64,000 nucleotides of DNA from Ulvibacterium sp. (GTDB lineage: Bacteria; Bacteroidota; Bacteroidia; Flavobacteriales; Flavobacteriaceae), in assembly GCF_028285715.1 (NCBI RefSeq), contig NZ_JANQOO010000010.1:310001-374000 (forward strand). Direction: 5' to 3'. Positions 48,016 through 64,000 of the stretch are shown here, piece by piece. The notes under the pieces are model-generated. The model searched no databases. It saw only the letters and a list, made by a program, of their open reading frames with translations, and was not told the origin of the DNA. Position numbers and translations under genes: made by a program. Each line of letters starts with the position of its first letter. Position 1 is the first letter of the stretch.

Positions 48016-49893
48016 CTAGAATGTATATCTCAATCCAATATTGTAATTTCTTTCTGCGGTGGCCCACCCAAAACGATCTACATATTCGGCATCAAAAATG
48101 TTGTTAATACCTCCTGAGACGGTCAGCTTTTTAAAACTATAGGATACAAAGCCATCAAAAAGATCATAGGCGTCCAAGGTGATTTCATTATTTTCGGGAA
48201 CCTCCCCAACATGTAAGTGTGTCAATTTCACGAGTAACTTCTCGACTGGAATAGCGGACAATGTAAAACCAAACTTAGTATTGGGCACCCTTCTTAAAAT
48301 CACATCATCGGTAAGTGATTTGGTGTACGTATAGTGTCCTGCCAGGGTGAGTTGCGGCAGGAAGGCATAACTCGCATTAAGCTCTACACCACCTACCTCG
48401 GTTTCATCTTCAAGATTCACGTAAGTGCCTTCCGTAAAATCATCATTAAATACGAAATCAATAAAGTCCTTGTCCTTCCTATAAAAATAGACCCCACCAA
48501 ATCTAAATTTTTCATTGGAAAACCATTCGAACCCACCTTCAACCGTTTCCGATTCCTGTGGTTCAAGATCCGGGTTTCCCGCGTCTGCGATAAGAAAGCC
48601 AAAATCACCCGCGTATAATTGACTCAATGAAGGTGAAAGGAATGCAGTGGCATAGGAACCCAGAATTTTGAGCTTACTTTGGCCTAAATTGAAAACATAA
48701 TTTGGATTTACGTTCCAAACAAAATTGGTCCCATACAAACTATGGTTGTTCAAACGACCTCCAAGTTGTACGTTGAAGTTGGCATGGTCATAGATCAATG
48801 ATGCATAGGGATCGATCATTGTAAAGCTTTCGCTATCGGCATCTTCCGGATCCCACACCGGACGTTGAAAGTTGATTCCCCCGATAAGTCGTATCTCATT
48901 GCTGAGCACTTGATCTAGGATGACATCTGCTTGCAGGGTATTGCCATTAAACTCGCTAATGTCCCTTTCATCGGGATTGCTACGATTGGGGGAATTGAAG
49001 ATTCGCTCATTGGTATGGTATGAGATGTTTCCTTTTAGACTACCACTGTTCCATTGGTATCTGGGAGATAGGGCAAATTTCAGAAGTTTTTGGTCTAATT
49101 CCGAGTCATCATCCCTAAAGGCTCCTCCATCAAAATCACTGGCAACATCGTCATATGCCGCCAAAAACCCTAAAGAGAATCTCTCGTTGAATTGATAGCC
49201 CAATCTTGTTAAAAAATTTAAGCTTTTGATACCGTCATCATCAAAGTCTTGGGTCCCTAATGTATCAAGTGCTGCGGAAAACCCATCTGAAGATCGGTAA
49301 GAGCCACTGACCATGTAATTGAATTTATCAGCCTTCCCCGACACATTCACATTGGACGTAAAGGTATTAAAGCTACCATACTCCATATTTAGGATGGTTT
49401 TAAAGGTCTCTTTGGCCGATTCCTTGAGCTTAATATTGATTACTCCCGCTGCCGCACCTGTACCATATAAAGAACTTAAGCCTCCTTTAAGCACTTCAAT
49501 GGATGCGATCTGGTTTAAATCCAGCATACGGAGGTCAAAGGTCTGGGCGAGACCGGATGGGTCGTTAAACGGTATTCCGTCAATCAGTATCAAGGTCTGT
49601 TCACTTTGTGCCCCTCTTACTCGATAGCTTATGTTGGTACCCGGAGTGGCGAAATTTCCATCTATTTGAACACCGGGAATCTCATTGAGTAAATCCATGA
49701 CATCTTTACCTCGATTTGCCTCAATTGCCTTTTGATTCAGTTTAAATATTGTTTTTCCCGATTTCTCTATCGGAGTCTCAATTTTGTTTCCGGTGACGAC
49801 CACGTCATCCAACTGGACTACTTTTAGCGAATCCTGTGATTTTGCAACAGTAACAAAGCAGGTCACCGCCACAACAAAAAAATACGTTTTCAT
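48016..49893 (-). CDS. btuB: BtuB-like TonB-dependent cobalamin receptor
   Basis: A 625-residue outer-membrane receptor from the ATG at 49893; the frame stays open to 49968 but only the shorter form begins with a signal peptide (ending near VAKSQ). A TonB-box-like LDDVVVTG precedes the plug (KDVMDLLNEIPGVQIDG, TLILIDGIPFND, IEVLKGGLSSLYGTGAAAGVINIKLK). The barrel ends in NIGLRYTF. It is short like BtuB and lacks the SusC N-terminal extension. A cobalamin riboswitch directly upstream strongly supports corrinoid uptake. A terminator follows. Confidence 0.9.
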   Translation of the reverse strand: MKTYFFVVAVTCFVTVAKSQDSLKVVQLDDVVVTGNKIETPIEKSGKTIFKLNQKAIEANRGKDVMDLLNEIPGVQIDGNFATPGTNISYRVRGAQSEQTLILIDGIPFNDPSGLAQTFDLRMLDLNQIASIEVLKGGLSSLYGTGAAAGVINIKLKESAKETFKTILNMEYGSFNTFTSNVNVSGKADKFNYMVSGSYRSSDGFSAALDTLGTQDFDDDGIKSLNFLTRLGYQFNERFSLGFLAAYDDVASDFDGGAFRDDDSELDQKLLKFALSPRYQWNSGSLKGNISYHTNERIFNSPNRSNPDERDISEFNGNTLQADVILDQVLSNEIRLIGGINFQRPVWDPEDADSESFTMIDPYASLIYDHANFNVQLGGRLNNHSLYGTNFVWNVNPNYVFNLGQSKLKILGSYATAFLSPSLSQLYAGDFGFLIADAGNPDLEPQESETVEGGFEWFSNEKFRFGGVYFYRKDKDFIDFVFNDDFTEGTYVNLEDETEVGGVELNASYAFLPQLTLAGHYTYTKSLTDDVILRRVPNTKFGFTLSAIPVEKLLVKLTHLHVGEVPENNEITLDAYDLFDGFVSYSFKKLTVSGGINNIFDAEYVDRFGWATAERNYNIGLRYTF

Positions 49894-49984
49894 ACTTATG
49901 GTTACAGTCGTTTTAAACAAATGCCACTTCCATTGGGAAGTAAGCCAATAATGCATGAAAGCTTTCACCCGAAGCTTGCAATTG

Positions 49985-50180
49985 TCGGTTTTAATCCGGC
50001 AGGTCTCCTGACTTGTTCAACTTTGGCTTCCTTCCCATCCGCCATTTGACGAACAGTGGAATTTGAAGTGGCCAAAGCTTACTGAACTTACAGTTGCGGG
50101 GACAGCTCTTGATTTTCACAAGATTCCCTATTAAGTCCATGCCTTAAAGGTTCAAAACATGAACACCGAATAGACCGCAA
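49985..50180 (-). ncRNA. Cobalamin riboswitch before btuB
   Basis: Read on the minus strand the conserved core elements appear in order: GGGAA, GCTGTCCCCGCAACTGTAAG, ATGGGAAGG and the B12 box CAGGAGACCTGCC (plus coordinates 49998-50013). It ends about 90 bases before the receptor's ATG. TATATTTG (50178-50185 complement) is a matching -7 box at its 5' end. Adenosylcobalamin or another corrinoid would be expected to shut off the receptor gene. Confidence 0.95.
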
Positions 50181-50294
50181 ATATATATTTTTTGGAAAGC
50201 AAATCGCAGAAGAAGTACGTTTATCTTGTAAAGAGTTGAATTAGAATTATTTAGCTTTTATCACTCCTTTCAAATTATCCCATCTTTCAACAAA

Positions 50295-50322
50295 TTGGCA
50301 GAAAATTCTATTTTTACATTTG
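50295..50322 (+). promoter_or_regulatory. Promoter of the btuFCD riboswitch transcript
   Basis: TTG at 50295-50297, a 17-base spacer and TACATTTG at 50315-50322 match the Bacteroidota -33/-7 pattern. Transcription would begin at the first bases of the riboswitch. Confidence 0.6.
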
Positions 50323-50500
50323 AATACGGTGCGCAAGCATAAAAGGGAATCCGGTGAACCGCCAATTGGCGGCAATTCCGGAGCTGCCCCCGCAGCTGTA
50401 GGCCAAACTCAAATGTTCCGAGGGGTTTTATATACAGAGCCACTATCAGCCAGCCGGCGGATGGGAAGGCGTAAAACCTGGCAAGCCAGAAGACCTACCT
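50323..50500 (+). ncRNA. Cobalamin riboswitch before btuFCD
   Basis: Core elements in order: GGGAATCCGGTGAA, AATTCCGGAGCTGCCCCCGC, AGCTGTAGGCC, ATGGGAAGGCG and GCAAGCCAGAAGACCTACC (50481-50499). About 130 bases of leader follow before the first start codon and would hold the expression platform. Confidence 0.95.
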
Positions 50501-50629
50501 ATTTCAACAGCAACAATTCGACGCTTAGGGGATGGAGCTATCGAATGCGGACTACTTACAGGTTGGGATACCTATGTTCCATTCATTAGCACCATTCTCG
50601 AATATTGGTTTTGGATTAATACTCAAAAA

Positions 50630-51784
50630 ATGCGAAGGAACATATTGGCAATTGTTAGTGTAGTTTTTCTGGTCTGTTGCCAGTCAAATCAGAATCGATC
50701 ACAAAGAAATGGATCTACTCCCCAAGAGACCACAGGCTCTTCATTTAAGCCTGACGTAAAATACGCCCAACATTTTATGGTGAACGAGGAGAAAAACTTT
50801 AAAACCGTTGTCGTCAAAAATCCTTGGGTAGCAGGCGATACATTGGTATCTTATGTGCTATACCCCAAAGGAAGAAAAGCACCTGCCGTTGAATGGGCAG
50901 AATTTAAGATTCCAGTACCCATAGATAAAGTAGTAGCTACCTCCAGCCCGCATATCGGTTTTATTGGGTTGTTGGATGAGTTGGACAAAATAATAGGAAT
51001 TGCCAATGACCGATATGTTTTTAACACTTATGTTTACGAAGGCGTAAACCAAGGCAAAATAGCCGAAGTAGGTTCTCTAAAAGATAGCAACCTTGAGGTT
51101 CTGATGGATCTGTCTCCAGAGCTGGTCATGAGAACGGGCATGGACAATGTTAGAAATGAAGATGCGCGTTTGACGGAGATCGGGATACCCATTTCCTACA
51201 ATGTAGAATGGATGGAAACCGGTATGCTGGCCCGGGCAGAATGGATAAAGTATATCGGAGCGTTTTTCAATAAGGATGCAGAGGCAGATTCCATCTTTAG
51301 GAGTGTGGAAAAGGAGTATTTAAAAGCGTTATCACTTACCTCCAATATTGATGAAAGACCGTCTATCATGACCGGTAATAATTTTAAGGGAACCTGGTAC
51401 ATGCCCGGTTCGGAGAGTTATTTGGCCAAGCTGATACTAGACGCGGGTGGAGACTATCATTATAAGAACAAAAAGTCAACGGGAAGTCTCCCGCTTAGTT
51501 TTGAAGTGGTGCTTGACGACTTGGTGGACGCCGATTATTGGATCGGTCCCCGGGCCCAGTCTTTGAAGGAATTGGAGATGATGGACGAACGATACTCGCT
51601 TTTCAAGGCTTTTAAGGACGGAAATGTATATACTTTCAACAAAAGAATGAGCGAAAATGGCGGTAACGATTATTGGGAAAGCGGTATGACCCGGCCCGAT
51701 CTTATTTTGAAAGACGTTATTAGAATTTTCCACCCTAATCTACTTCCCGATCATAAGCTATACTATTACAAACAATTACAATAA
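50630..51784 (+). CDS. btuF: BtuF-like corrinoid-binding ABC lipoprotein
   Basis: A 384-residue substrate-binding protein with a lipoprotein-like signal (FLVCCQS, Cys16/17). It has the class III periplasmic-binding fold: VVATSSPHIGFIGLLDELDKIIGIA, NLEVLMDLSPELVMRTG, LARAEWIKYIGAFF and LAKLILDAGGDYHY. Longer than E. coli BtuF, as usual in Bacteroidota. It heads a B12-riboswitch operon with permease and ATPase, so corrinoid binding is more likely than haem or siderophore binding. Confidence 0.9.
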   Translation: MRRNILAIVSVVFLVCCQSNQNRSQRNGSTPQETTGSSFKPDVKYAQHFMVNEEKNFKTVVVKNPWVAGDTLVSYVLYPKGRKAPAVEWAEFKIPVPIDKVVATSSPHIGFIGLLDELDKIIGIANDRYVFNTYVYEGVNQGKIAEVGSLKDSNLEVLMDLSPELVMRTGMDNVRNEDARLTEIGIPISYNVEWMETGMLARAEWIKYIGAFFNKDAEADSIFRSVEKEYLKALSLTSNIDERPSIMTGNNFKGTWYMPGSESYLAKLILDAGGDYHYKNKKSTGSLPLSFEVVLDDLVDADYWIGPRAQSLKELEMMDERYSLFKAFKDGNVYTFNKRMSENGGNDYWESGMTRPDLILKDVIRIFHPNLLPDHKLYYYKQLQ

Positions 51785-51796
51785 CCGGTTTGTCAA

Positions 51797-52849
51797 TTGA
51801 CTAAAGACAATAATAACATATTGAAATCATGGGGAATTGTGCTTGTTGGACTTGTGTCAATTCTATGCCTTTTCCTGTTGGATTTGAGCTTAGGGAGCGT
51901 AAAAATATCGGTAGAGGAGTTGCTTAAAATTATCTCTGGGAATGCTTCCAAAAAATCATGGGAATACATCTTCTTTAACTTTAGGCTTCCCAAGGCAATT
52001 ACCGCCATTTTAACGGGAGCAGGCATTTCGGTAGCCGGCTTACAGATGCAAACACTTTTCAAAAACCCCTTGGCAGGCCCATCCGTATTGGGAATTAGCC
52101 ATGGGGCAAGTTTGGGAGTGGCCGTCTTTGTGCTTTCTTCAACGGCAATTTTTGGAGTAACCGCCAATTTTCAAGAAACATTGGGCAGTTGGGGCCTTGT
52201 TCTTTTTGCCATAGTCGGATCGTTTTTAGTACTCTTAGGTGTGCTATTGGCGTCATCCAAGGTGTCGGATACGGTGACGGTACTTATCGTAGGATTAATG
52301 TTTGGTTTTATCACTGGGGCAGTGGTGAATATCTTGCAGTACTTTAGCGATCCCGAGCTGATCCAAAACTTTCTGGTCTGGACATTTGGTAGCCTTTCCG
52401 GGGTAGCCTGGTCCCAACTGCGGGTAATGGGGCCTATTATAATGCTTATGCTCGTAATGTCACTATTCTATTCCAAGCAAATGAATGCCCTGCTTTTAGG
52501 TGAGAACTATGCGACCGGGGTTGGTGTCAATGTTTCCCGAACCAGGTTGAAATTGATTCTGACCACCAGCATTATAGCGGGTACGATTACTGCCTTTACC
52601 GGCCCTATCGCTTTCATAGGTGTAGCCGTACCACACTTGGCGCGTTTACTTTTCCGCACTTCCAACCATAAGGTGTTGATTCCGGCAACCATGATGTGTG
52701 GCATGGTAATCATGCTCGTTTGCGATATCGTATCACAAGTACCCGGCGCCCAAACGACACTGCCGCTAAATTCCGTTACTGCGCTTTTTGGTGCACCTGT
52801 TATTCTGGCGATCATTATCAAAAGCAAGAAAATGAAAGGGGCATTCTAA
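51797..52849 (+). CDS. btuC: BtuC-like FecCD-family ABC permease
   Basis: A 350-residue permease with about ten membrane helices. FecCD hallmarks are FRLPKAITAILTGAGISVAGLQMQTLFKNPLAGPSVLGISHGA (given here by its key pieces RLPKAI, GAGISVAGLQMQ, NPLAGPSVLGI) and TAFTGPIAFIGVAVPHLARLL. The only reasonable start is a TTG at 51797, 12 bases after btuF. The stop overlaps the next ATG by one base (TAATG), showing tight coupling to the ATPase. Confidence 0.93.
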   Translation: MTKDNNNILKSWGIVLVGLVSILCLFLLDLSLGSVKISVEELLKIISGNASKKSWEYIFFNFRLPKAITAILTGAGISVAGLQMQTLFKNPLAGPSVLGISHGASLGVAVFVLSSTAIFGVTANFQETLGSWGLVLFAIVGSFLVLLGVLLASSKVSDTVTVLIVGLMFGFITGAVVNILQYFSDPELIQNFLVWTFGSLSGVAWSQLRVMGPIIMLMLVMSLFYSKQMNALLLGENYATGVGVNVSRTRLKLILTTSIIAGTITAFTGPIAFIGVAVPHLARLLFRTSNHKVLIPATMMCGMVIMLVCDIVSQVPGAQTTLPLNSVTALFGAPVILAIIIKSKKMKGAF

Positions 52850-53892
52850 TGGACCATCAATCGAAGATAAATAACGGCAATGCCCATTTCACCATACCTA
52901 TACTCTATACCCGTGGGTTGACTATCGGCTACCGAACGAAACACGATGTACTGGAACTTGAAAAGGATTTAAATATAAAAATTCATAACGGCGAGCTAGT
53001 ATGTCTCATCGGTCCAAATGGCTGTGGCAAGTCTACCTTGATGCGCACCATTGCCGGGCTGCAAAAACCGTTGGAAGGAGATACGGTGATTTCTGAGGTT
53101 GATGTAAAAAAAATAAAACCACATCAATATGCACGGTTATTAAGCCTGGTCTTAACGGATAAAATAAATGTGGGAGGTATGAAGGTAATGGACATTGTTT
53201 CCATAGGCCGTTATCCGTATACCAACTATTTTGCAAAGCTGGGACCAAAAGATTATGAAATCATTGAACGTTCGTTGGATAATGTGCATTTAAATGAGTA
53301 TAAAGATCGGTTCTTTCATGAATTGAGCGATGGCGAAAAGCAGCGGGTGCTCATCGCTAAAGCACTGGCTCAAGACACGCCCCTCATTATGTTGGACGAA
53401 CCAACCGCTCACCTGGATTTGCCGAATCGTGTAGAAATCATGAACATCCTGAAGCGTTTGGCCAAAGAAACCAACAAGGCCATATTTTTATCTACCCATG
53501 AGCTGGACCTTGCGCTCCAGACAGCGGATACGATCTGGTTAATGAATCGGGAGGAAAATATGAAAAGTGGTACGCCAGAAGACCTGGTTTTATCGGGCAT
53601 GTTCGAGCAGGTTTTCAAAAGCAATGCCTTTCGGTTTGATAAGCACTCGGGCGCTTTTAAGGTGGTACATCCCATCAAGGGAAAGGTGTCGTTATTGGGA
53701 AATGGCGTTCATAGTATTTGGGTCCGTCGGGCCTTGGAAAGGGAGGGCTACCAAGTGGTAAAGAATCCCGATGTACAACCTAAAGTGCAGTATATCAACA
53801 ACCTTTGGCAGCTTAATAGCAATGGTAATACACTTTATTGTCAAGATATTGCCGGGCTTTTGCGTGCTTTGCGCAAAGAAACGCCGAGTTAA
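52849..53892 (+). CDS. btuD: BtuD-like ABC transporter ATPase with C-terminal extension
   Basis: A 347-residue ATPase. Walker A is GPNGCGKST (55-63), the ABC signature LSDGEKQRV, Walker B LIMLDEPTAHLD, and the switch His lies in STHELD. The frame is open upstream to 52696 but that overlaps btuC; the ATG at 52849 overlaps the btuC stop. About 80 residues after the normal end (from VVHPIKGKVSLLG) form an extra alpha/beta domain not found in E. coli BtuD. Confidence 0.92.
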   Translation: MDHQSKINNGNAHFTIPILYTRGLTIGYRTKHDVLELEKDLNIKIHNGELVCLIGPNGCGKSTLMRTIAGLQKPLEGDTVISEVDVKKIKPHQYARLLSLVLTDKINVGGMKVMDIVSIGRYPYTNYFAKLGPKDYEIIERSLDNVHLNEYKDRFFHELSDGEKQRVLIAKALAQDTPLIMLDEPTAHLDLPNRVEIMNILKRLAKETNKAIFLSTHELDLALQTADTIWLMNREENMKSGTPEDLVLSGMFEQVFKSNAFRFDKHSGAFKVVHPIKGKVSLLGNGVHSIWVRRALEREGYQVVKNPDVQPKVQYINNLWQLNSNGNTLYCQDIAGLLRALRKETPS

Positions 53893-53925: not shown

Positions 53926-54513
53926 TTAACCTTTGGCTTTCCTTTTGCGCTTATACAGGAAAAGGTTCCATTTTTCCTCTGCTACGCCATGTTTGTCCAT
54001 CTCGGCTCTTGCCAGGGTAAAGAAGAGGTCCGATAAGCGATTGATATAGGCTGGTACATAATCTTCCACACATTCAGGATCACTGTCCACAAGACCGAAT
54101 AATGCCCGTTCCCCCCGGCGGATTTGTGTCCTGCACACATGACATAATGCAGAAACTTCATTTCCTCCCGGGAGCAGGAAGTAATCCGAAGGACTGCTCA
54201 ATGCCTCTTCCAGTTTATCGATCCACTGTTCGCAGAAATCCGCTCCATCTAGGGGTCTGGGATTCGGGTTTTCCTTTTTGGAATTGGAAGGGCGGGCTAA
54301 ATGTGACATCATATCCATGAGGTCTTTTTGAATCCTATGCAAGTTTCCCTGCCAAGCATGATCTGGTTCCAACTTGGCACGAAGTAGGCCGATAGTGCTG
54401 TTTACTTCATCCAACGTGCCAATGCACTCGATTCGCGGTCCATTTTTAGGTTCTCTTTTTCCACCGAATACGCCGGTTGTTCCGTTATCCCCTTTACGTG
54501 TATATATCTTCAT
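53926..54513 (-). CDS. PduO-type ATP:cob(I)alamin adenosyltransferase
   Basis: A 195-residue enzyme that adds the adenosyl group to cob(I)alamin or cob(I)yrinate diamide. KIYTRKGDNGTTGVFGG is the N-terminal ATP-binding signature, then ECIGTLDEVNSTIGLLRA, and CHVCRTQIRRGERAL gives the conserved RxxxRRxER-like helix. Length is usual for the PduO family. It is convergent with btuD and follows CobB by 93 bases on the minus strand, probably as the last gene of that operon. Confidence 0.94.
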   Translation of the reverse strand: MKIYTRKGDNGTTGVFGGKREPKNGPRIECIGTLDEVNSTIGLLRAKLEPDHAWQGNLHRIQKDLMDMMSHLARPSNSKKENPNPRPLDGADFCEQWIDKLEEALSSPSDYFLLPGGNEVSALCHVCRTQIRRGERALFGLVDSDPECVEDYVPAYINRLSDLFFTLARAEMDKHGVAEEKWNLFLYKRKRKAKG

Positions 54514-54606
54514 AGGTATGGTTTGTTTTAGAATATATCCGGAAACTCCCGATAAAAATCAAGAATCGGATGGTGTAAAATACAAGTCAGGATTTTGACA
54601 TTCATT

Positions 54607-55935
54607 TCATTGCTTTTCTAACATGGCAATCAGGTTTAATAGCATGTTTTCTTCACCAAAATGATAGTGGATGTAGGATGCCATTGTTTTCTGCTTAACA
54701 AAAATATTGGTTTTAACTTCCATTCCCTTGGCATTTAACACCGTGGCCTTATAAGGTGTTTCATGCTGTTCTTTCATCGTGGTGTAATGAAATTCATGCC
54801 CCTTTAATCGCAAGTGATCCAATATCACCTCCCGGTAACCTAAACGCATCTTCGCTCCCTCCATGCTAGACGTAAAATCGAAGAAACCGACCATTTTAAA
54901 TACATTGCCTTCATGATCAGTGATACGCTTTCCTAAATACATCATACCTCCGCACTCCGCGAATATTTTTCCACTGTTTTCCGCAAATAATCGTACACTT
55001 TGAAGCATGGAAGTGTTGCCGGATAACGCTTCTAGGTGACATTCTGGATATCCCCCAGGGAAATACACAAAATCGGACTCAGGTACCTTTTGGTCTCGAA
55101 TCGGGCTGAAGAAAGTAACACTCCCTATAGCTTCCATAACCTTGATATGATGGGGGTAAATGAAATTAAAGGCTTCATCCATAGCAATCGCAAACCGAAA
55201 TTTTTTGCTGGTGTGGTAATCGGGTGAGGGGGTTAATGATGATTGATAGGTCGTTTCCTTTAACAACGATGGCCAATCCAGCGTTTGTTCCATCTCTGTG
55301 GCAAGGGTCTGGATGGTCTCCTCGTATTGTTCAAGACGAGTGATATCCAAACCGAGGTGGCGCGAAGGAATTTGAACATTTTCCAATCTTCGGACATACC
55401 CAAATGACTGTATACCGATATCATCGCACGCCTCTTTTAAAAAGGAATAATGATTTTCAGAACCCACACGATTGAATATCACACCTATTAAATTCAAGTT
55501 TTTGTCAAAGTTCCTGAATCCCTGAATCAGAGGGGCGACCGAATAGGCCACTGCCTTCGCATCCACTACGAGGATTACCGGAAGATTCATTTTGATGGCC
55601 AGTTCGGCCGTGCTACCTTCTGCCTTTCTAGCGCCATCGAACAGCCCCATGACCCCTTCTATGCAACTCACCCGCTGATTCCTTCCAAAACTACTGAGTT
55701 GCTCATGGAGATAGGGTTCACTCATCATGAACAGGTCTAAATTAATACCCGTTTTTCCACAGGCCTGATAATGAAATTTTGGGTCGATGTAGTCCGGCCC
55801 TACCTTGAAGGGCTGAACTGAAATGCCTTTTTCCCGGAATAATCGGAGCAACCCCAGGGTAACGGTGGTCTTTCCGGCATTGCTATTGGGTGCGGCAATG
55901 ATAAATCGGCTTTGGGGGTCAGTTTTCCGGTTCAT
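54607..55935 (-). CDS. cobB: Cobyrinate a,c-diamide synthase (CobB/CbiA)
   Basis: A 442-residue glutamine-dependent amidase that makes the a- and c-amides of cobyrinic acid. The P-loop is APNSNAGKTTVTLGL, followed by GPDYIDPKFHYQACG, the family signature. IEGVMGLFDGA fits, and the C-terminal glutamine amidotransferase has the nucleophile Cys in FAECGGMMYLG. It overlaps the AAA gene upstream by four bases. Confidence 0.94.
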   Translation of the reverse strand: MNRKTDPQSRFIIAAPNSNAGKTTVTLGLLRLFREKGISVQPFKVGPDYIDPKFHYQACGKTGINLDLFMMSEPYLHEQLSSFGRNQRVSCIEGVMGLFDGARKAEGSTAELAIKMNLPVILVVDAKAVAYSVAPLIQGFRNFDKNLNLIGVIFNRVGSENHYSFLKEACDDIGIQSFGYVRRLENVQIPSRHLGLDITRLEQYEETIQTLATEMEQTLDWPSLLKETTYQSSLTPSPDYHTSKKFRFAIAMDEAFNFIYPHHIKVMEAIGSVTFFSPIRDQKVPESDFVYFPGGYPECHLEALSGNTSMLQSVRLFAENSGKIFAECGGMMYLGKRITDHEGNVFKMVGFFDFTSSMEGAKMRLGYREVILDHLRLKGHEFHYTTMKEQHETPYKATVLNAKGMEVKTNIFVKQKTMASYIHYHFGEENMLLNLIAMLEKQ

Positions 55936-56468
55936 ACTTGATTTAAGTTTTCATAGATGAAGCGTATCCTCTTACCGACCGTGTCTTCCGGGAGCCTTAC
56001 AACCTCGAATCCCTTTTCTCGATAAATATTGACAAGTGCCTTTTCCAGCGCCACACAATGATCAAAGTCTTGTAATCGCTGTGAGTCCTTTTGGTAAATT
56101 GCCTCCCATACGGGAGCGAAAAAGACTTTCCGATGAAATTTATCCAGATAGGGAAAGGTATCCAGTTGTTGGGGAATCGTTTTACCGTCCAACCTAAGAT
56201 AGGCGATCAAATCAAGGATAGACCGATCGGTAAAGAGGGCCTTGGGGTTTAAATCAAGTTTGATGATAAACGCATCATAGACCAATGCTACAAACTTTTC
56301 CAAATCTTGCCATGGCATAGCGTCCCCGCCATTTTCCTGTTCTTTTAGGATTACTTTTCGGGACACTTCATGCATACAAGGAAATTCCTTTTCCAAATCC
56401 TTGATCAAAGTAGTCTTTCCGGTTCCCGGTGCTCCTGTTATGATGTATTTTTTACTATACTCTGCCAT
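55932..56468 (-). CDS. AAA_28/NadR-like P-loop NTPase in the cobalamin operon
   Basis: A 178-residue ATPase or kinase. The P-loop is ITGAPGTGKTTLIKDLE and a DRSILDLIAYL segment resembles the nucleoside-kinase DRS motif. Others in this family are annotated only as AAA ATPases or NadR-like kinases. It overlaps CbiB by 14 bases and CobB by four, so it belongs to the operon. CobU-type kinase motifs are absent. A role as small-molecule kinase in corrinoid assembly is inference. Confidence 0.8.
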   Translation of the reverse strand: MAEYSKKYIITGAPGTGKTTLIKDLEKEFPCMHEVSRKVILKEQENGGDAMPWQDLEKFVALVYDAFIIKLDLNPKALFTDRSILDLIAYLRLDGKTIPQQLDTFPYLDKFHRKVFFAPVWEAIYQKDSQRLQDFDHCVALEKALVNIYREKGFEVVRLPEDTVGKRIRFIYENLNQV

Positions 56469-57396: not shown

Positions 57397-58394
57397 AGTC
57401 TGAGAGCTTTTATAAGGGCTGCATTTGCTCCCGGGCTTTGTGTAGAAAGGCGTATATGTTCCCCATGAAGCCGTTGGAAATTTGTAGCATCCCTAATCAG
57501 GATACCGTGCTGTGTGGCCAAAAATTCCTTAAGCGCAGAAGCGGTACCTTTCTTTAATTCAACTAGGAAATAGGTGGTATAGGTGGGTTTTACTTGCAAC
57601 CAAGGGATCGCCGAAAGTTCTCGGATAAATTCTCGGGTTGCTTGGAGTAGTTCTTCAATATTGAAGAGCCATCGATCATAATGCTCAAAAACTTGTAATC
57701 CGGTTTGAATGGCCAAGGCATTTACACTCCATGGCATTTTTTTGCTGAGAAGTTGCTCAATAATTCTCGAGCAGGAGATGATATAGCCCAATCGTATGCC
57801 GGGAACGGCGAAGGTCTTGGTCAAAGATCGAACTACGATCAGATTATTCAAACCTTTGACCAAAGGCCCGAGAGATTCAATTTGATCGGTAAATTCAATA
57901 TAGGCTTCATCTATCACAAAAGTCGTGTCCGGCGCTTCTTCGATAAGTTGGGTCAGTACTTCGGCTGAGAAAAAGGTCCCGTCCGGATTGTTCGGATTAC
58001 AAATGAAAACCACCTGGTAGTCGTTGGGGTTGAACCTTGTTTTATCAACCAAATGGTAATCCAGCCCATGAATTTTACAGGCATTCTCGTATTCCGAGAA
58101 GGTGGGTGCCACAATAGCCGCAGATGCCCCTGAAAACAGATGTGCGATCAGGTAAAATGCCTCAGTGGCTCCATTGGTAAATAAAAATTGGTCCTTGTGC
58201 AACCGAAATTTCCTTGCTGCCATTTCATTGAGCTCCGCTGCAGTTGGGGAAGGATAGTTTTCCAATATAGACAAAGCGGATGAAATCTTGGTCAAGAGTT
58301 CGAGGGGGCATCCCTTATAGTATACATTAGAACTAAAGTTGTGCTTTATTTTACCGTTGTACCGATACAGGTCATCTCCATGTCCGTAAATCAT
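57387..58394 (-). CDS. Threonine-phosphate decarboxylase-like PLP enzyme (CobD/CobC)
   Basis: A 335-residue fold-type I PLP enzyme. It starts YGHGDDLYRYNGKIKHNFSSNVY, the CobD/CobC opening, and has FTNGATEAFYLIA, FICNPNNPDGT, FVIDEAYIEF and SLTKTFAVPGIRLGY with the PLP lysine. In cobalamin synthesis the product is (R)-1-amino-2-propanol phosphate. Histidinol-phosphate aminotransferase is the close alternative, but position between CobQ and CbiB, with overlaps, favours CobD. Confidence 0.9.
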   Translation of the reverse strand: MIYGHGDDLYRYNGKIKHNFSSNVYYKGCPLELLTKISSALSILENYPSPTAAELNEMAARKFRLHKDQFLFTNGATEAFYLIAHLFSGASAAIVAPTFSEYENACKIHGLDYHLVDKTRFNPNDYQVVFICNPNNPDGTFFSAEVLTQLIEEAPDTTFVIDEAYIEFTDQIESLGPLVKGLNNLIVVRSLTKTFAVPGIRLGYIISCSRIIEQLLSKKMPWSVNALAIQTGLQVFEHYDRWLFNIEELLQATREFIRELSAIPWLQVKPTYTTYFLVELKKGTASALKEFLATQHGILIRDATNFQRLHGEHIRLSTQSPGANAALIKALRLWN

Positions 58395-59848
58395 CCTCCT
58401 TCACTGTTTTTGATAATAGTATCCATATCCAAATGCCGGTCAATCCAGGCTGCAAGGGTATCGTATTGCGCTTCCTTAAATTGTAAATAGTTTTTCGCTT
58501 GGGTATCCTTATGCTTCACACGAAGCAATTCGTTTATCACGACCTGGTTGTCCAAAATACCGTGAAGATATGTTCCCCAGCTCTTGTCCCCGTCAAAGTA
58601 GCCTTCGGGTGATCCATCAATCAAGTTTAGATGCTTGTCCTCGGGGACTTTAGTTTCCCCCATGTGAATCTCATAACCCATACACGTTTCCCGATAATCC
58701 TTGAACCTAAAGTTTTGTTGTATTACGGTTTTTTCCTTGGTTAGGGTGGTGGTACTATCAAATAGGCCCATACCCATCTCCCTGCCTCGATCGCTTTCCA
58801 CTTGAAAAGGATCTTCTATCCATTTTCCCATCATTTGATATCCGCCACAAATCCCGATAACCGGAAGGCTACCATATAAGCTTTTGATGATTTCGGTGAT
58901 TCCATCCTCCTTTAGGGCCACTAAATCCTCAATGGTATTTTTGGTTCCCGGTATAATGAGAACATCCGCTTTCTTCAACTCTTCTGCATCCCTGGTGAAA
59001 TATAGGTTGATGAGCGGCTCTTGCTCCATGGCCTGAAAGTCTGTGTAATTAGACATATAATGCAGGCGTATAACCGCCACGTTCAACTTTCCATTTTGAG
59101 CGGTTGTTTTCCGCTGTGTAAGTGCCACCGAATCTTCCTCTTCCAACACAATATCCGAGGCATAGGGAAGCACCCCAAGTACAGGCGTTTTCGTCAAATC
59201 TTCCAGCATCTTCTTCCCTTCTTCAAATAGGGTTTGATCCCCACGGAATTTGTTGATGATGATTCCCTTTACCAAATTGCGTTCCCATTCTTCCAGCAAA
59301 GCGATAGTGCCATAGACACTCCCGAATATTCCACCTTTATCAATATCCGCAACAAGATATACACACGCATTAGCCGCCTGTGCCATGCGCATATTCACGA
59401 TATCCCGATGTTTCAGATTTAATTCACTGATACTGCCTGCCCCTTCCATCACTACAGGGCTAAAGGTGCCGTCAAGAATGCGGAAAGCCCTTTGTGCTTC
59501 CTCAAACAAATGATTTTTATCATTTGTAAAATATTGTTTCGCTGTTTGTACGCCCAGCGGTTTACCGTATAACACCACTTGGGATTTGTTTTCTGCCGAA
59601 GGCTTCAATAAAATGGGATTCATCTCAACCATCGGCGCCAATTTGCAGGCTTCGGCCTGTACGGCCTGTGCCCTACCGATTTCCAATCCATCCGCCGTTG
59701 AAAAGCTGTTGAGCGACATGTTTTGGGCCTTAAATGGGGCCGGATCAAAACCGTGATTTTTTAGCCATCTGCAGATTCCGGCAGTTATCCAACTCTTGCC
59801 GACATCGGATCCAGTTCCCACAATCATGATCGGTCTTATTTTCTTCAT
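58391..59848 (-). CDS. cobQ: Cobyric acid synthase CobQ/CbiP
   Basis: A 485-residue amidase adding the b, d, e and g amides. MIVGTGSDVGKSWITAGIC is the dethiobiotin-synthetase-like P-loop, FKAQNMSLNS the family signature, VYLVADIDKGGIFGSVYGT follows, and the amidotransferase nucleophile Cys lies in GICGGYQMMG. LIDGSPEGYFDG and TYLHGILDN end it. First gene of the minus-strand operon. Confidence 0.95.
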   Translation of the reverse strand: MKKIRPIMIVGTGSDVGKSWITAGICRWLKNHGFDPAPFKAQNMSLNSFSTADGLEIGRAQAVQAEACKLAPMVEMNPILLKPSAENKSQVVLYGKPLGVQTAKQYFTNDKNHLFEEAQRAFRILDGTFSPVVMEGAGSISELNLKHRDIVNMRMAQAANACVYLVADIDKGGIFGSVYGTIALLEEWERNLVKGIIINKFRGDQTLFEEGKKMLEDLTKTPVLGVLPYASDIVLEEEDSVALTQRKTTAQNGKLNVAVIRLHYMSNYTDFQAMEQEPLINLYFTRDAEELKKADVLIIPGTKNTIEDLVALKEDGITEIIKSLYGSLPVIGICGGYQMMGKWIEDPFQVESDRGREMGMGLFDSTTTLTKEKTVIQQNFRFKDYRETCMGYEIHMGETKVPEDKHLNLIDGSPEGYFDGDKSWGTYLHGILDNQVVINELLRVKHKDTQAKNYLQFKEAQYDTLAAWIDRHLDMDTIIKNSEGG

Positions 59849-59942: not shown

Positions 59943-60145
59943 CACGGTGTTTTTGGTGGATTTTCTCCCTTATTTGGAGAAGACCTTAATATGGGAATCC
60001 GGTGAGCTGCCGATAAGCGGCAAATCCGGAGCTGTACCCGCAACTGTGAGTTCAATAAGCTTTGGCCAAATTATTTTCCACTATTTGCCATTATGCAGAT
60101 GGGAAGGAAGACCAAGTTGAACGAGCCAGGAGACCTGCCAAGACA
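59943..60145 (+). ncRNA. Cobalamin riboswitch before the CobN-type operon
   Basis: Core elements in order: GGGAATCCGGTGAG, AAATCCGGAGCTGTACCCGC, AACTGTGAG, ATGGGAAGGAAG and GAGCCAGGAGACCTGCC (60123-60139). The operon starts 150 bases later. This places the membrane-protein, ExbB-like, DUF2149 and CobN-like genes under corrinoid control. Confidence 0.95.
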
Positions 60146-60179
60146 TATCCATATCAGAGCTTTCGGGATTAAAGGCTAA

Positions 60180-60269
60180 ATGATACATTCCATACTGACC
60201 AAAAAAATCATAGCTCTTCAATGTTGGTTTGTATTGATTAGTGCCATAGGCCAGGATCCTGTCATCTAA
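60180..60269 (+). CDS. Small open frame, signal-peptide-like; possible gene remnant
   Basis: Twenty-nine residues starting MIHSILTKKIIALQCW and ending SAIGQDPVI. It has a charged start, hydrophobic core and an A-x-GQ end, like a Bacteroidota signal peptide with nothing after it. It lies between the riboswitch and the first full gene. It may be a truncated exported protein, a leader peptide or chance. Confidence 0.35.
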   Translation: MIHSILTKKIIALQCWFVLISAIGQDPVI

Positions 60270-60297
60270 GTTGGTGTTCGGAAAAATGGCATAAAGA

Positions 60298-60906
60298 ATG
60301 GCTATCGATTTAGTTCTTGTTGGTCTGCAAACGGTTTTTCTCAGTCTTTATGGGACAAATGGAGTTGTTGAATCCATACGACACAAAAAAATATCTTGTG
60401 TCTCAGTTCTGATTACTTTTTTGGGGATTGCCCTTTTGTGCATTTTCCTTGAAAGCTATATACGATATAATCTGCAACTCCTCGTTTTTTTGCTCTTGAT
60501 ACTGGATTACATGCTACACTTATACGCTCCTGATTCTGGACGACTGGGAAAAACAGTGGTCTTTGCCGGAATAACTTTTATGGCATATGCTCACCTATAC
60601 TTTTGGTTAGAACTACCGATTATAGGGTTGGCAGCTCCGTTTTTTTATGTAGCCCTTCTTGGAATGATGAACAAATGGCCCAAATTTCTAGTGGACTTGA
60701 AGGAGTATTTTCTCAAAGCTGGAGCACTGCTTACTTTGCTCTTTATGGTAGAACCCGTTGCCCTAAGTAGTATACAGCAAAATCTGAAACCCATAGCTAC
60801 CATTCCCATAGCTCAAATTATAAATCGACAAAACTTTTGGCTTCTTGGCGCGCTAGTCGTACTGATGCTTGGAGGCTTCTTTTGGAAAGAGAAATCAAGA
60901 CTTTAG
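60298..60906 (+). CDS. Six-helix membrane protein of the CobN-type operon
   Basis: A 202-residue protein with about six membrane helices (LVLVGLQTVFLSLYGTNGV, VLITFLGIALLCIFLES, LLVFLLLILDYMLHLY, and three more). No enzymatic motif. It is first after the riboswitch and starts a run of closely spaced genes: the next ATG is four bases after its stop. By position it may correspond to the small membrane protein of hmu-type haem operons, but I cannot prove homology by eye. Confidence 0.8.
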   Translation: MAIDLVLVGLQTVFLSLYGTNGVVESIRHKKISCVSVLITFLGIALLCIFLESYIRYNLQLLVFLLLILDYMLHLYAPDSGRLGKTVVFAGITFMAYAHLYFWLELPIIGLAAPFFYVALLGMMNKWPKFLVDLKEYFLKAGALLTLLFMVEPVALSSIQQNLKPIATIPIAQIINRQNFWLLGALVVLMLGGFFWKEKSRL

Positions 60907-60910
60907 GCCT

Positions 60911-61489
60911 ATGAATATTTTAGAATCCATTTTATTAGCCATTGCGAATTTGCTTTACTACCCTGTGCTTTTGGGAGTACTCTTGGTATTGCTGCATCAA
61001 GTGGTGGCCGTCGGGAAGTTTATGAGCGAACTAAAGCAAAGGCGCAACAAAAACTTTAAAAGAATCCAAGCGTTTAAAGCGCAACATGCGGATTATTTTA
61101 AAGCTCCTGCTGCAACCTACAAGGTCATTGAATATGACCTTGTCTCCAAGCTTCGCAAATGGCATCAAAGCTACAACAAATCACTCAGTGCCAATCGACT
61201 GGTGGTTAAAGCAGGGCCTTCACTGGGTCTCCTGGGAACATTAATTCCAATGGGTACCGCGCTCGCCTCCCTGTCCCAAGGGGATCTTATGATCATGTCG
61301 GCCAATATGGTGACTGCATTTACCACCACAGTGGTGGGTATGGCTTCCGGACTGACTGCATTTTTGATGCATTATAAGCAAACGGAATGGATGAAAAGGG
61401 ATCTGCTGGAATGTGAGTCCCTATGTGAAAGGAGTTTGATGGAGTGGGAGAATGAACTGGAACATACCGAAAATTTAATCAACAGCTAA
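60911..61489 (+). CDS. MotA/TolQ/ExbB-family proton-channel protein
   Basis: A 192-residue protein. It has an N-terminal helix (NLLYYPVLLGVLLVLLHQVV), a cytoplasmic stretch, and the paired helices of the family: AGPSLGLLGTLIPMGTALAS and MVTAFTTTVVGMASGLTAFL. GTLIPMG with TTVVG are hallmarks. The frame opens at 60869 but the ATG at 60911 follows the previous stop by four bases. ExbB-type proteins pass protons to drive a partner; here the next gene and CobN are the likely partners. Confidence 0.9.
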   Translation: MNILESILLAIANLLYYPVLLGVLLVLLHQVVAVGKFMSELKQRRNKNFKRIQAFKAQHADYFKAPAATYKVIEYDLVSKLRKWHQSYNKSLSANRLVVKAGPSLGLLGTLIPMGTALASLSQGDLMIMSANMVTAFTTTVVGMASGLTAFLMHYKQTEWMKRDLLECESLCERSLMEWENELEHTENLINS

Positions 61490-61498
61490 GTAATTGGA

Positions 61499-61843
61499 AT
61501 GATGAGTTTACTCAGAAAGTATTCGTCGATCGATGAGGAATTTAATTCGGAAGCCGATCCTATTGGGAGCATGGCCAACTTGTTCGATGTAAGCATCGTG
61601 TTTATCGTGGCACTGTTTTTTGCACTTTTTATGGCCTATAGTACGCTCGATCTCTTCAACCCCGATTCAGAATTGGTCATTACCAAGACCATGGCCAATG
61701 GTGAAATCCAAATCATTACCAAGAAAGGGAAAGATATCAAAATTGAAAAAGTCACCGAAACCAGTGAATCCGGAAGAGGGGTAAAACTGGGTACGGCCTA
61801 TAAGCTCGAAGATGGACGAGTTATTTACATACCAGAAGACTAA
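61499..61843 (+). CDS. DUF2149-family membrane protein
   Basis: A 114-residue protein; a second ATG at 61502 is equally possible. One membrane helix (VSIVFIVALFFALFMAYS), then a soluble part ending GVKLGTAYKLEDGRVIYIPE, the DUF2149 signature. Topology is like ExbD/TolR: one helix and an outside domain. DUF2149 genes often neighbour MotA/TolQ/ExbB and CobN-like genes. It could be the ExbD-like half of the motor. Confidence 0.88.
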   Translation: MMSLLRKYSSIDEEFNSEADPIGSMANLFDVSIVFIVALFFALFMAYSTLDLFNPDSELVITKTMANGEIQIITKKGKDIKIEKVTETSESGRGVKLGTAYKLEDGRVIYIPED

Positions 61844-61981
61844 ACGCGCTAAACGGGATTTTTTAGGGCGATTCGTATACCGAATACAAACTTGTGCCGA
61901 GCGACTTGCCTTGAGCTATGCCGAGGGATATCGAAGCATGTAAATATTTAAAAATCAATCCATTGACCTAGATCAAAATAT
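61844..61981. other. Spacer before the CobN-like gene
   Basis: No gene, terminator or promoter box recognised in 138 bases, so read-through from the riboswitch transcript is likely. Confidence 0.5.
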
Positions 61982-64000
61982 ATGAAATATATAATCCGTT
62001 CAATTTGTCTTGTCTTTCTCTTTTTGACCAGTGGTGTAAAGGGTCAAAGCACAGACCAAAAAATAGATATTGCCCTTATCCTTACGGACTCCTACCGTTT
62101 TTTGGGAGAGGATACAGCCAAGGATGCACAGAAAGCTTTGGCAGCGTACGGTGTGGAAGCCCGCATAAATAGTTACTATCATTCCGACCTTGATTTACTC
62201 ACCTACGAAGAATTAAGTAGCAATCAGTTGCTATTCATCGATATCATCAATGCCGCAAAGGTCGGGCACGTACTACCACTTTTGAATGACATGGCGAAAA
62301 GCGGAAGGAAGGTATTTGCAGTAGGCTCCAATGAAACTACGGGTCTTGGAGCATATACGGCTATCCAAATGGATGCAAAAACCATTGAGTTTTACGAGCA
62401 GTCGGGGCGCGACAACCTGGTGGGTATGGTATTGGATCAATGCCAACGCGCATTTCGTTTCGACATTCCCCAACAGCGTCCGATTCCCATGCCTGAATTT
62501 GCCCTCTGCAATATTCAAAACAAAAAAATCCATGAGGATTTTGAATCGTATCAACAGGACTATGCCGCTTATATGAAAGGTAATCCTTGGATTGCCATAA
62601 ACATGTGGCGAAGTGATTTTTTGTCCGAGCAGTTGACACATTTCAAGGAGTACGCTTCACAGTTTGAAGAGAATGGCTTCAATGTGCTTTTCTATTATGG
62701 TTATCCTGGGAAAAAAGAGGCCGAAAAGCTGTTTTATGACCGAAATAAACGGCTCGTTCCAGAAGTAATCCTGGCACAAGCCGCCTGGCTCGGAGCAAAT
62801 CCACGTACCAACCGGGAACTATTTGAAATGCTCGGCATCCCCGTCATCAATATGATTCAGGTAAATCAGACCGCCGATGAGTGGATGCAGAGTACGAAAG
62901 GCATAGCCATTTACAAGCGTACCAGTTCCTTGAATATTCCCGAACAGATGGGAATGGTACAACCTATCGTGACCAGTAGCAAGGAGGAGGTGAATCCTTC
63001 AACGCAGTGGACTGAAAAGCGTTCCATCCTATTTCAGGTACAGCGATTGCTAAAGCGGGTACAGAAAATGCACGTTTTGCAAAATAAACCGAATGACGAG
63101 AAGCAAATTGCACTGATTTATTACAGCCACCCCCCGGGTAAGGAACTTTTAGGGGCAAGCTACCTTAATGTGGTGCCCAATAGTCTTTATTCCATCCTCT
63201 CCAGATTGAAAAAAGAAGGATATGGCGTTGGTAGTGAAGTGCTTACTGAAGATGATGTATTCGAAAAGGTTTCCAACTATGGCCTGAATATCGGACAATG
63301 GGCACCGAAAGAAATCGATAAACTGGTAGAGAAGGGTAAAGCCACGCTGGTTCCCATGGAGTTGTATTTGAAATGGTATGCCAAACTTTCCAGTCCCTTA
63401 AAAAAAGAAATCGAGCAAGAATGGGGAAAGCCCGAAGAGAGTTCCATTATGATCTGGAAGGATAAAAATGGAAAGAAGTATTTCGTAATTCCATCCATAC
63501 GATATGGCAATGTGTTGCTTACGCCCCAGCCTGTCCGTGGGTGGTCGCAAGATTCAAACATAATGCATCACGATATCTCTGTGCCGCCCCATCACCAATA
63601 CGTAGCATTTTATCTCTATTTACAATTTGGCTACGATGCCGATGCGGTTGTACACCTCGGCACGCATAGTACCCTGGAATGGTTACCCGGAAAGGAAACC
63701 GGGCTAAATCATCATGATGCCTCGGAAGCATTGATCGGGGATATGGTAAATGTGTATCCATACATCGTTGATGATGTGGGCGAAGGGCTTCAGGCAAAGC
63801 GCCGATCAGGGGCCATTATCATTGATCATATGACCCCTCCTTTTGACAAAATCGCTATCAATCCAGTGCTGGCTAAATTGGAACAGCTTATTTCCGAGCA
63901 TAGAATCGCCAAATCCAAAAGTACAGCACTTGCGAAGGCCAAATTCAATGAAATAGGCAAATACGCAAAACAATCAGGAATTATAGCTGATTTAGCCTTT
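61982..64000 (+). CDS. Exported CobN-like metal chelatase, cut by window end
   Basis: At least 673 residues, open to the last base. A signal peptide (start MKYIIRSICLVFLFL, cleavage near VKGQ, residue 22) precedes a CobN/BchH-type large chelatase subunit. Family motifs: PWIAINMWRSDFLS, FYYGYPGKKEAE, IALIYYSHPPGKELLGASYLN, WGKPEESSIM, YGNVLLTPQPVRGW and the core HLGTHSTLEWLPGK at about 558-571. Ordinary CobN is cytoplasmic and works with CobS/CobT ATPases; this one appears exported and no AAA+ partner is present in view. The riboswitch suggests a corrinoid substrate; insertion and removal of metal are both possible. Confidence 0.92.
   Translation, partial: MKYIIRSICLVFLFLTSGVKGQSTDQKIDIALILTDSYRFLGEDTAKDAQKALAAYGVEARINSYYHSDLDLLTYEELSSNQLLFIDIINAAKVGHVLPLLNDMAKSGRKVFAVGSNETTGLGAYTAIQMDAKTIEFYEQSGRDNLVGMVLDQCQRAFRFDIPQQRPIPMPEFALCNIQNKKIHEDFESYQQDYAAYMKGNPWIAINMWRSDFLSEQLTHFKEYASQFEENGFNVLFYYGYPGKKEAEKLFYDRNKRLVPEVILAQAAWLGANPRTNRELFEMLGIPVINMIQVNQTADEWMQSTKGIAIYKRTSSLNIPEQMGMVQPIVTSSKEEVNPSTQWTEKRSILFQVQRLLKRVQKMHVLQNKPNDEKQIALIYYSHPPGKELLGASYLNVVPNSLYSILSRLKKEGYGVGSEVLTEDDVFEKVSNYGLNIGQWAPKEIDKLVEKGKATLVPMELYLKWYAKLSSPLKKEIEQEWGKPEESSIMIWKDKNGKKYFVIPSIRYGNVLLTPQPVRGWSQDSNIMHHDISVPPHHQYVAFYLYLQFGYDADAVVHLGTHSTLEWLPGKETGLNHHDASEALIGDMVNVYPYIVDDVGEGLQAKRRSGAIIIDHMTPPFDKIAINPVLAKLEQLISEHRIAKSKSTALAKAKFNEIGKYAKQSGIIADLAF

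Follow-up and report, generated by a model that had tools for sequence, protein, structure and literature searches.

Close to the end of a 64,000-nucleotide stretch of Ulvibacterium sp. DNA (contig NZ_JANQOO010000010.1, positions 310,001 to 374,000; hereafter the window) lies an operon in which a cobalamin riboswitch is followed by genes for a six-helix membrane protein, an ExbB-type proton channel subunit, a DUF2149 protein and a CobN-like protein (Table 1). From the riboswitch, the predicted export signal and membrane tail of the CobN-like protein, the coupling of these genes across genomes and the lack of a detectable ChlI/D-type partner in most holders examined, all of which were computed, we infer that the operon encodes a vitamin B12-repressible machine that handles the metal of corrinoids outside the cytoplasm, a reading to which we give about an even chance. 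A preliminary description, made from the sequence alone, had proposed the same order of elements with the riboswitch starting at 59943; Rfam, Pfam and the open reading frames (ORFs) bear this out, with the start moved to 59937.

All four genes lie downstream of the riboswitch and on its strand, the first of them 141 nt from the riboswitch end, with intergenic gaps of 4 and 9 nt among the first three genes and 138 nt ahead of the CobN-like gene. The CobN-like frame is still open at the end of the window; in the genome it forms an ORF of 1308 aa with its stop side at L003:15908 (G000:C4:375908). It is the sole CobN-family protein detected in the 5.0-Mb genome (99.98% complete), where it is reported as two pieces. 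Its N terminus resembles a signal peptide and its C terminus is a hydrophobic tail followed by RKRKKKD, so that the export foreseen in the preliminary description is also predicted here. Relative to the closest locus, L038, the ratio of nonsynonymous to synonymous substitution rates (dN/dS) is 0.07 for the ExbB-type gene, 0.04 for DUF2149 and 0.08 for CobN, at dS values of 1.3-2.3 that are near saturation; for the six-helix protein the ratio is 0.46. The sequence between the DUF2149 and CobN genes that was considered as a repeat occurs in the window in single copy only.

Coupling, control and likely substrate of the module

The combination of CobN, ExbB and DUF2149 (the module) recurs across genomes. 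Eighty loci, 58 bacterial and 22 archaeal, were fetched by CobN similarity, and both ExbB and DUF2149 are present in 52 of the bacterial and 4 of the archaeal ones. Five of the six bacterial exceptions are fragments or are cut by a contig end (L055, which has DUF2149, L058, L061, L062 and L088), and in the sixth, L043, CobN stands without the pair. Sampling that started from DUF2149 instead identified five Bacteroidota genomes besides the source genome (in overlapping sets of 296 and 345 genomes) and, in 398 Pseudomonadota genomes, 17 places in 16 genomes, the search centre G611 not counted. The DUF2149 family is rare (3/296, 4/345 and 17/398 genomes), and in all 22 independently sampled places, in two phyla, ExbB, DUF2149 and an exported-type CobN occur together on one strand. 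The coupling, which the preliminary description had made a test of its proposal, is strong, and homologues were not found to lie mostly beside CobS/CobT, CobS having been sought without a model of its own.

Examination of chosen loci with Rfam shows that cobalamin riboswitches accompany the module well beyond the window. They were detected in the window and in all six of its close relatives (7/7), with their position kept, in 5/6 Burkholderiales loci, in 3/3 of L089, L091 and L092, and in 7/11 Nitrospirota/Desulfobacterota-type loci with long upstream sequence, where they precede the series of genes of which the module is the last part. None was detected in five HmuS-type loci, in two archaeal loci or in nine short-contig loci that have little upstream sequence. 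Of the 17 Pseudomonadota loci found via DUF2149, eight were flagged by a pattern search and seven of these were passed to Rfam, all with a riboswitch, that of L174 lying on the strand opposite the module and the L172 copy directly ahead of CobN being weak (33.5 bits); L166 was weakly flagged by pattern only, and the absence call for the other nine also comes from the pattern only. L043, L068 and most Burkholderiales loci were covered by the pattern search, and L090 is outside the Rfam set.

The strongest new clue to the substrate is CbiZ, adenosylcobinamide amidohydrolase, which is encoded in eight loci, either in the same gene run as the module (L049, L052, L059, L086, L089) or fused to a BtuF-like domain (L091, L092, L159). 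Judged by eye, seven of the eight have an in-frame signal sequence, and L052 has a signal-like stretch in another frame. A riboswitch is present in six of them (L049, L052, L089, L091, L092, L159). CbiZ of exported type beside the module, mostly with a riboswitch, points to corrinoids, and cobamide remodelling is apparently placed outside the cytoplasm in these loci, where a corrinoid without its nucleotide loop could fit a CobN-type cleft. CbiM- or CbiQ-type genes adjoin the module in L047, L049, L059, L069 and L086; L059 and L086 share the order CbiM-type, small protein in the CbiN position, CbiQ-type, ATPase, receptor, CbiZ, DUF2162-ExbB fusion, DUF2149, CobN. With the riboswitches, the signal sequences of CbiZ and the CbiM/CbiQ genes of some relatives, the corrinoid context that the preliminary description had proposed is found beyond the window.

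The same evidence could be read as metal harvest, in which imported chelates are stripped in the periplasm and the ion enters through a partner permease, the B12-controlled branch, window included, being the cobalt version. There is a precedent in the haem de-chelatase HmuS, which releases haem iron (PMC12583661), and the five loci with CbiM/CbiQ-type genes fit it as well. So do two loci concerned with other metals. On plasmid pRUNSL01 of Runella slithyformis (L177:1-16294), a receptor, a NiCoT-like protein (match below cut-off), ExbB, DUF2149 and CobN lie within a hyp cluster of [NiFe]-hydrogenase genes, which suggests a nickel version, and in Pseudomonas aeruginosa PA1922-PA1925 is under control of the zinc regulator Zur (PMC4542158, PMC8531726, PMC9431628). 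The latter operon, known here by description and not by sequence, resembles the window in its receptor, CobN-like and DUF2149 genes, and its fourth gene is called ExbD in the papers (PMC4542158, PMC9431628). These two cases suggest one module serving several metals; it is therefore probable that the module acts generally as an extracytoplasmic metal-chelate machine and that the window operon is its corrinoid branch. Harvest of cobalt as such sits less well with gene content, as the ring-synthesis marker CbiC was not found in the source genome or in six other riboswitch-bearing holders (G595, G596, G597, G611, G612, G616), most of which are metagenome-assembled genomes (MAGs) or of unestablished completeness, so that no use of cobalt in ring synthesis is evident there. 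CbiC is present in 18 of the 32 holders examined. In addition, the neighbours of the operon in the window and in Reichenbachiella are corrinoid uptake genes and not cobalt transporters. We regard metal harvest as a minority possibility, somewhere near one chance in four.

Proposed energising role of the ExbB-DUF2149 pair

Chelatases of the CobN and ChlH kind in the cytosol are driven by AAA+ subunits, and no such partner is apparent for the window protein. The best match to the ChlI/D model TIGR02442 in the source genome is 53 bits, and no CobT was detected there; CobS was sought without its own model. Among 32 genomes with an exported CobN, an analyst's selection from the 80 loci that includes many MAGs of unestablished completeness, 27 have no ChlI/D-type protein above 57 bits, compared with 400 and 412 bits for those next to the cytosolic CobN of two genomes from the family of the source organism, and CobT was found in 1 of 33 genomes. 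The lack of ChlI/D-type and CobT partners agrees with the preliminary description; its further claim, that proton motive force takes the place of AAA+ ATPases, is a possibility drawn from gene content.

The ExbB-type proteins are invariant at P103, G106, G109, T110, P113, A136, F137 and G143 (56/56 aligned), and Asp30 of DUF2149, at the start of its transmembrane helix, is invariant in 30/30. By analogy with ExbB/ExbD, G109-T110 and this aspartate may carry protons. DUF2149 has the ExbD-like topology described earlier; no homology to ExbD was detected, with hhalign giving E 0.35 against four ExbD proteins of the source genome and no match to PF02472, and DUF2149 was rejected as a true ExbD. 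Its structure model (mean pLDDT 63.5, pTM 0.32) has one confident helix within residues 21-50, the remainder being of low confidence.

The six-helix protein has no Pfam (DUF2162 included) or NCBIfam match at E 0.001. It is family-specific, with relatives in 6 of the 80 loci, and in an alignment of seven the invariant residues concentrate in an SxQxNxKPxxTIP region. HmuT and DUF2162 were tried as relatives and rejected: local hhalign values were E 0.05-0.4 at a probability of about 1% or less, and global alignment gave at best E 0.003 at 4%. Consequently, the likeness to the hmu operon that had been proposed earlier stands for the layout of CobN, ExbB-type and DUF2149 genes and fails for homology of the small membrane protein to HmuT. 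In L059 (8310-9494) and L086 (8276-9442), a DUF2162-like region is fused with ExbB into a single protein, which suggests that DUF2162 is part of the ExbB complex.

What the pair energises could also be a TonB-dependent corrinoid receptor, the CobN-like protein then being a periplasmic carrier without chelatase chemistry. This comes near to what has been proposed for pSZ77 (PMC3403914) and for HmuU/HmuV, which have been read as TonB energisers, HmuV being taken as an apparent marker of haem transport (PMC10100974). Many Gram-negative loci do have TonB-dependent receptors close to the module (15/17 in Pseudomonadota, for example), and some have TonB genes. The window operon itself holds no receptor gene, and DUF2149 is not detectably ExbD.

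Archaea have no outer membrane, yet four archaeal loci (L097, L114, L116, L117; genes named by Pfam on L116 only) retain a DUF2162-type protein, ExbB, DUF2149 and CobN together. In addition, the pSZ77 operon of Trichlorobacter (Geobacter) lovleyi SZ (L176) runs DUF2162-ExbB-DUF2149-CobN and then has a complete separate ExbB-ExbD-TonB set; canonical ExbD is also close to the module in L090 and L103. The archaeal loci and the separate set of pSZ77 suggest that ExbB-DUF2149 drives CobN and not TonB, and we disfavour a role for the pair as TonB energiser. These results speak against the published view of HmuU/HmuV as receptor energisers and of HmuV as a diagnostic of haem transport (PMC10100974), and we consider a system for transport alone unlikely, at roughly one chance in six. 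In archaeal L093, L102, L111, L113 and L114, two or three CobN-like genes stand in a row, with ExbB-DUF2149 nearby only in L114.

The pSZ77 cluster is otherwise close to the window, with a riboswitch-like element (a pattern match only) ahead of receptor, ExbB, DUF2149 and CobN genes. It differs in having DUF2162 in place of the six-helix protein and in the extra ExbB-ExbD-TonB genes. Its description noted no CobS/T homologues and suggested a distinct cobalamin-related role, credited the host with de novo cobalamin synthesis and read the cluster as outer-membrane transport (PMC3403914).

The CobN-like protein compared with HmuS and cytosolic CobN

HmuS (9d26) is the best PDB match of the window protein, at 474 bits versus 358 for CobN. 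HmuS is defined by Met79, His254, a methionine-rich insertion and several motifs, LSLDHxxEFMGG among them (PMC12583661). At these places the window protein has Ile for Met79, no histidine for His254, no aligned counterpart of residues 702-890 (the methionine-rich insertion) and SLDNDDFFQYLGG for LSLDHxxEFMGG. In the HmuS-type loci, His254 is present in 5/5 and Met79 in only 2/5. The catalytic His538 of HmuS is retained (HLGTHSTLEWLPGK). A second motif is Asp/Gln in the window type and in cytosolic CobN (L131, L132, 7c6o) and His/Glu in HmuS and BchH, on which two the histidine comparison rests because the histidine of ChlH (4zhj) aligns one position off; one additional cytosolic CobN group has Asp/Asn, and the pattern found no match in L164 and L166. 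Given the missing haem-site residues, insertion and motif and the CobN-type Asp/Gln, the window protein is not HmuS. The CobN-like genes at L167:9495-13352 and L168:9575-13462 have an HmuS-like Asp-His...Glu motif, other readable members of their clade having Asp/Gln, and their products are possibly a convergent haem type.

Nor is the window protein a CobN of the CobNST type, as it scores 523 bits against TIGR02257, below the cut-off of 822, compared with 1530 for the control L131. Two trees, one thinned to 88 of 117 proteins and one thinned further with Pseudomonadota proteins added, separate the exported-type clades (HmuS, archaeal, a large bacterial clade with the window, further Pseudomonadota clades) from cytosolic CobN and BchH, with the window protein falling outside the HmuS clade. 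With exported type assigned by clade and the hydrophobicity threshold set by the analyst, hydrophobic segments are found at both termini in 92/101 exported-type proteins and in 0/33 cytosolic-type rows (31 distinct). Seven of the nine exceptions are truncated or have a start that is in doubt (L039, L062, L105, L109, L112, L113, L170), L068 is slightly below the threshold and L043 has no tail.

That the operon is an additional HmuS system for haem iron, placed under B12 control by chance or cross-regulation, is therefore very improbable, since the better PDB score for HmuS is set against residues, tree position and the five riboswitch-free HmuS-type loci, and we disfavour haem as the substrate.

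The nearest described operon is nevertheless hmuSTUV of Bacteroides and Porphyromonas, which likewise joins an anchored CobN-family protein, a small membrane protein, an ExbB-type protein and DUF2149. It differs in control (iron versus a B12 riboswitch), in gene order (hmuS ahead of T, U and V versus CobN last) and, as set out above, in its small membrane protein, haem site 1, insertion and second motif, the equivalent of His538 being common to both. Cytosolic CobN, with CobS/T or ChlI/D partners, shares family and Asp/Gln motif with the window protein; the window differs from it in the predicted signal sequence and tail, the lack of a detected ChlI/D-type or CobT partner and the lack of CbiC. 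BtuS, a class of CobN-like proteins going back to Rodionov et al. (2003) and known here through PMC6460266 only, whose experiments concern haem iron in B. fragilis, is an exported family with a salvage role; the window protein, for which an export signal is predicted, may or may not belong to it.

Proposed metal editing of corrinoids and the genomic setting

In the reading that we favour, the CobN-like protein would bind a corrinoid in a CobN-type cleft at the periplasmic face of the inner membrane, and ExbB-DUF2149 would convert proton flow to conformational work of the kind that cytosolic CobN and ChlH obtain from AAA+ subunits, with the result that the metal of the ring is inserted, exchanged or removed. 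In relatives with exported CbiZ and CbiMNQO-type transporters, removal would be the likely direction: a cobamide enters, CbiZ cuts the nucleotide loop, CobN extracts the cobalt and CbiMNQO imports it. We know of no enzyme that removes cobalt from cobamides. In the source genome, which lacks CbiC and has CbiA-, CobQ-, CbiB-, CobU/S/T/C- and BtuFCD-type genes, inserting or exchanging cobalt in salvaged corrinoids before uptake would be more useful. For the window we lean only slightly to insertion or exchange over removal; insertion, removal and mere corrinoid handling are all compatible with the sequence. More broadly, and as a tentative proposal that we rate below the reading of the window itself, bacteria and some archaea may hold an extracytoplasmic corrinoid chelatase driven by proton motive force. 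It would belong partly to a dismantling line, in which a receptor, exported CbiZ, exported CobN with ExbB-DUF2149 and CbiMNQO take cobalt from cobamides, and would insert or exchange metal in salvagers.

Several observations weigh against a proton-driven corrinoid machine. Removal of cobalt is of no obvious benefit to this organism because it cannot make the ring (as judged by one marker, CbiC), and insertion requires metal-free corrinoids, the supply of which is undocumented for it. Eighteen of the 22 archaeal loci have CobN without the pair, several of them on short contigs; CobN may work alone there, or the pair may be located elsewhere. Five genomes (G603, G607, G618, G620, G621) hold a ChlI/D-type protein of at least 300 bits, and a second CobN was found in three of them and not in G603 or G620. 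No Rfam riboswitch was detected in four loci of the Sphingobacteria-type sister group, or in L059 and L086 with their full set of CbiM-CbiQ-CbiO, CbiZ and module genes. Asp/Gln occurs in Pseudomonadota loci L160-L163 and L165, where no riboswitch was found, and the riboswitch-bearing L171, L172, L174 and L175 carry Asp/Asp, which weakens the motif in both directions as a corrin-only marker. Finally, the module is also found in the nickel-hydrogenase locus and, according to the papers, in the Zur regulon.

The setting of the operon is that of corrinoid uptake and salvage (Table 1). CbiB, CobD and CobQ types are encoded near it and CobC, CobS, CobT and CobU types on its far side; these names and those of the permease and ATPase were read from sequence, with no family search. 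CbiC was not found in the genome, which looks like that of a salvager because of this one absence, and no CbiZ was found in the fetched part. A small AAA_28-type P-loop protein (window 55932-56468) adjoins cbiB, and a similar-looking one, again read from sequence, is present in a relative (L131:14849-15370). L131 and L132, members of the same family, have cytosolic CobN with a nearby ChlI/D-type partner and no DUF2149, L132 also having CobW; unlike them, the source genome has exported-type CobN only.

Table 1. Features of the operon and its surroundings (window coordinates)
Feature	Position	Strand	Basis
Cobalamin riboswitch RF00174	59937..60156	+	Rfam match, 87.3 bits (gathering 31.5), E 3.6e-20
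Six-helix membrane protein, 202 aa	60298..60906	+	ORF
MotA/TolQ/ExbB-type proton channel subunit, 192 aa counted from ATG	60911..61489	+	PF01618, 44 bits (cut-off 22.9)
DUF2149 protein, 114 aa, one transmembrane helix and small domain	61499..61843	+	PF09919, 94.5 bits (cut-off 27.1)
CobN-like protein, 5' part, predicted signal sequence and membrane tail	61982..64000	+	PF02514, 911 bits; full ORF in genome
Cobyric acid synthase (CobQ-type), divergent neighbour outside the operon, corrinoid context	58391..59848	-	ORF; name from sequence, agreeing with Pfam match of relative L040:5619-7076
PduO-type adenosyltransferase, CbiA-type a,c-diamide synthase, AAA_28 protein	53926..56468	-	Pfam and NCBIfam
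BtuB-type TonB-dependent receptor; binding-protein, permease and ATPase genes	48016..53892	- (receptor); + (others)	Receptor and binding protein by family; permease and ATPase by ORF reading
Cobalamin riboswitches of receptor and transporter sides, one each side	49981-50185; 50309-50516	-; +	

Earlier publications cover the hmu system, the chemistry of HmuS, the CobN-like class BtuS and the pSZ77 cluster. In openly readable text, excluding supplements, we found no report of B12-riboswitch control of the module across phyla, of exported CbiZ adjoining it or of ExbB-DUF2149 as a motor for CobN. If our reading is correct, the chelatase superfamily would be powered in two ways, by ATP in the cytosol and, beyond the cytosol, by proton motive force, which would account for hmuU and hmuV accompanying HmuS. 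Proteins whose current annotation is cobaltochelatase CobN would also gain a testable role, and the reading predicts that the metal of cobamides can be edited ahead of their uptake.

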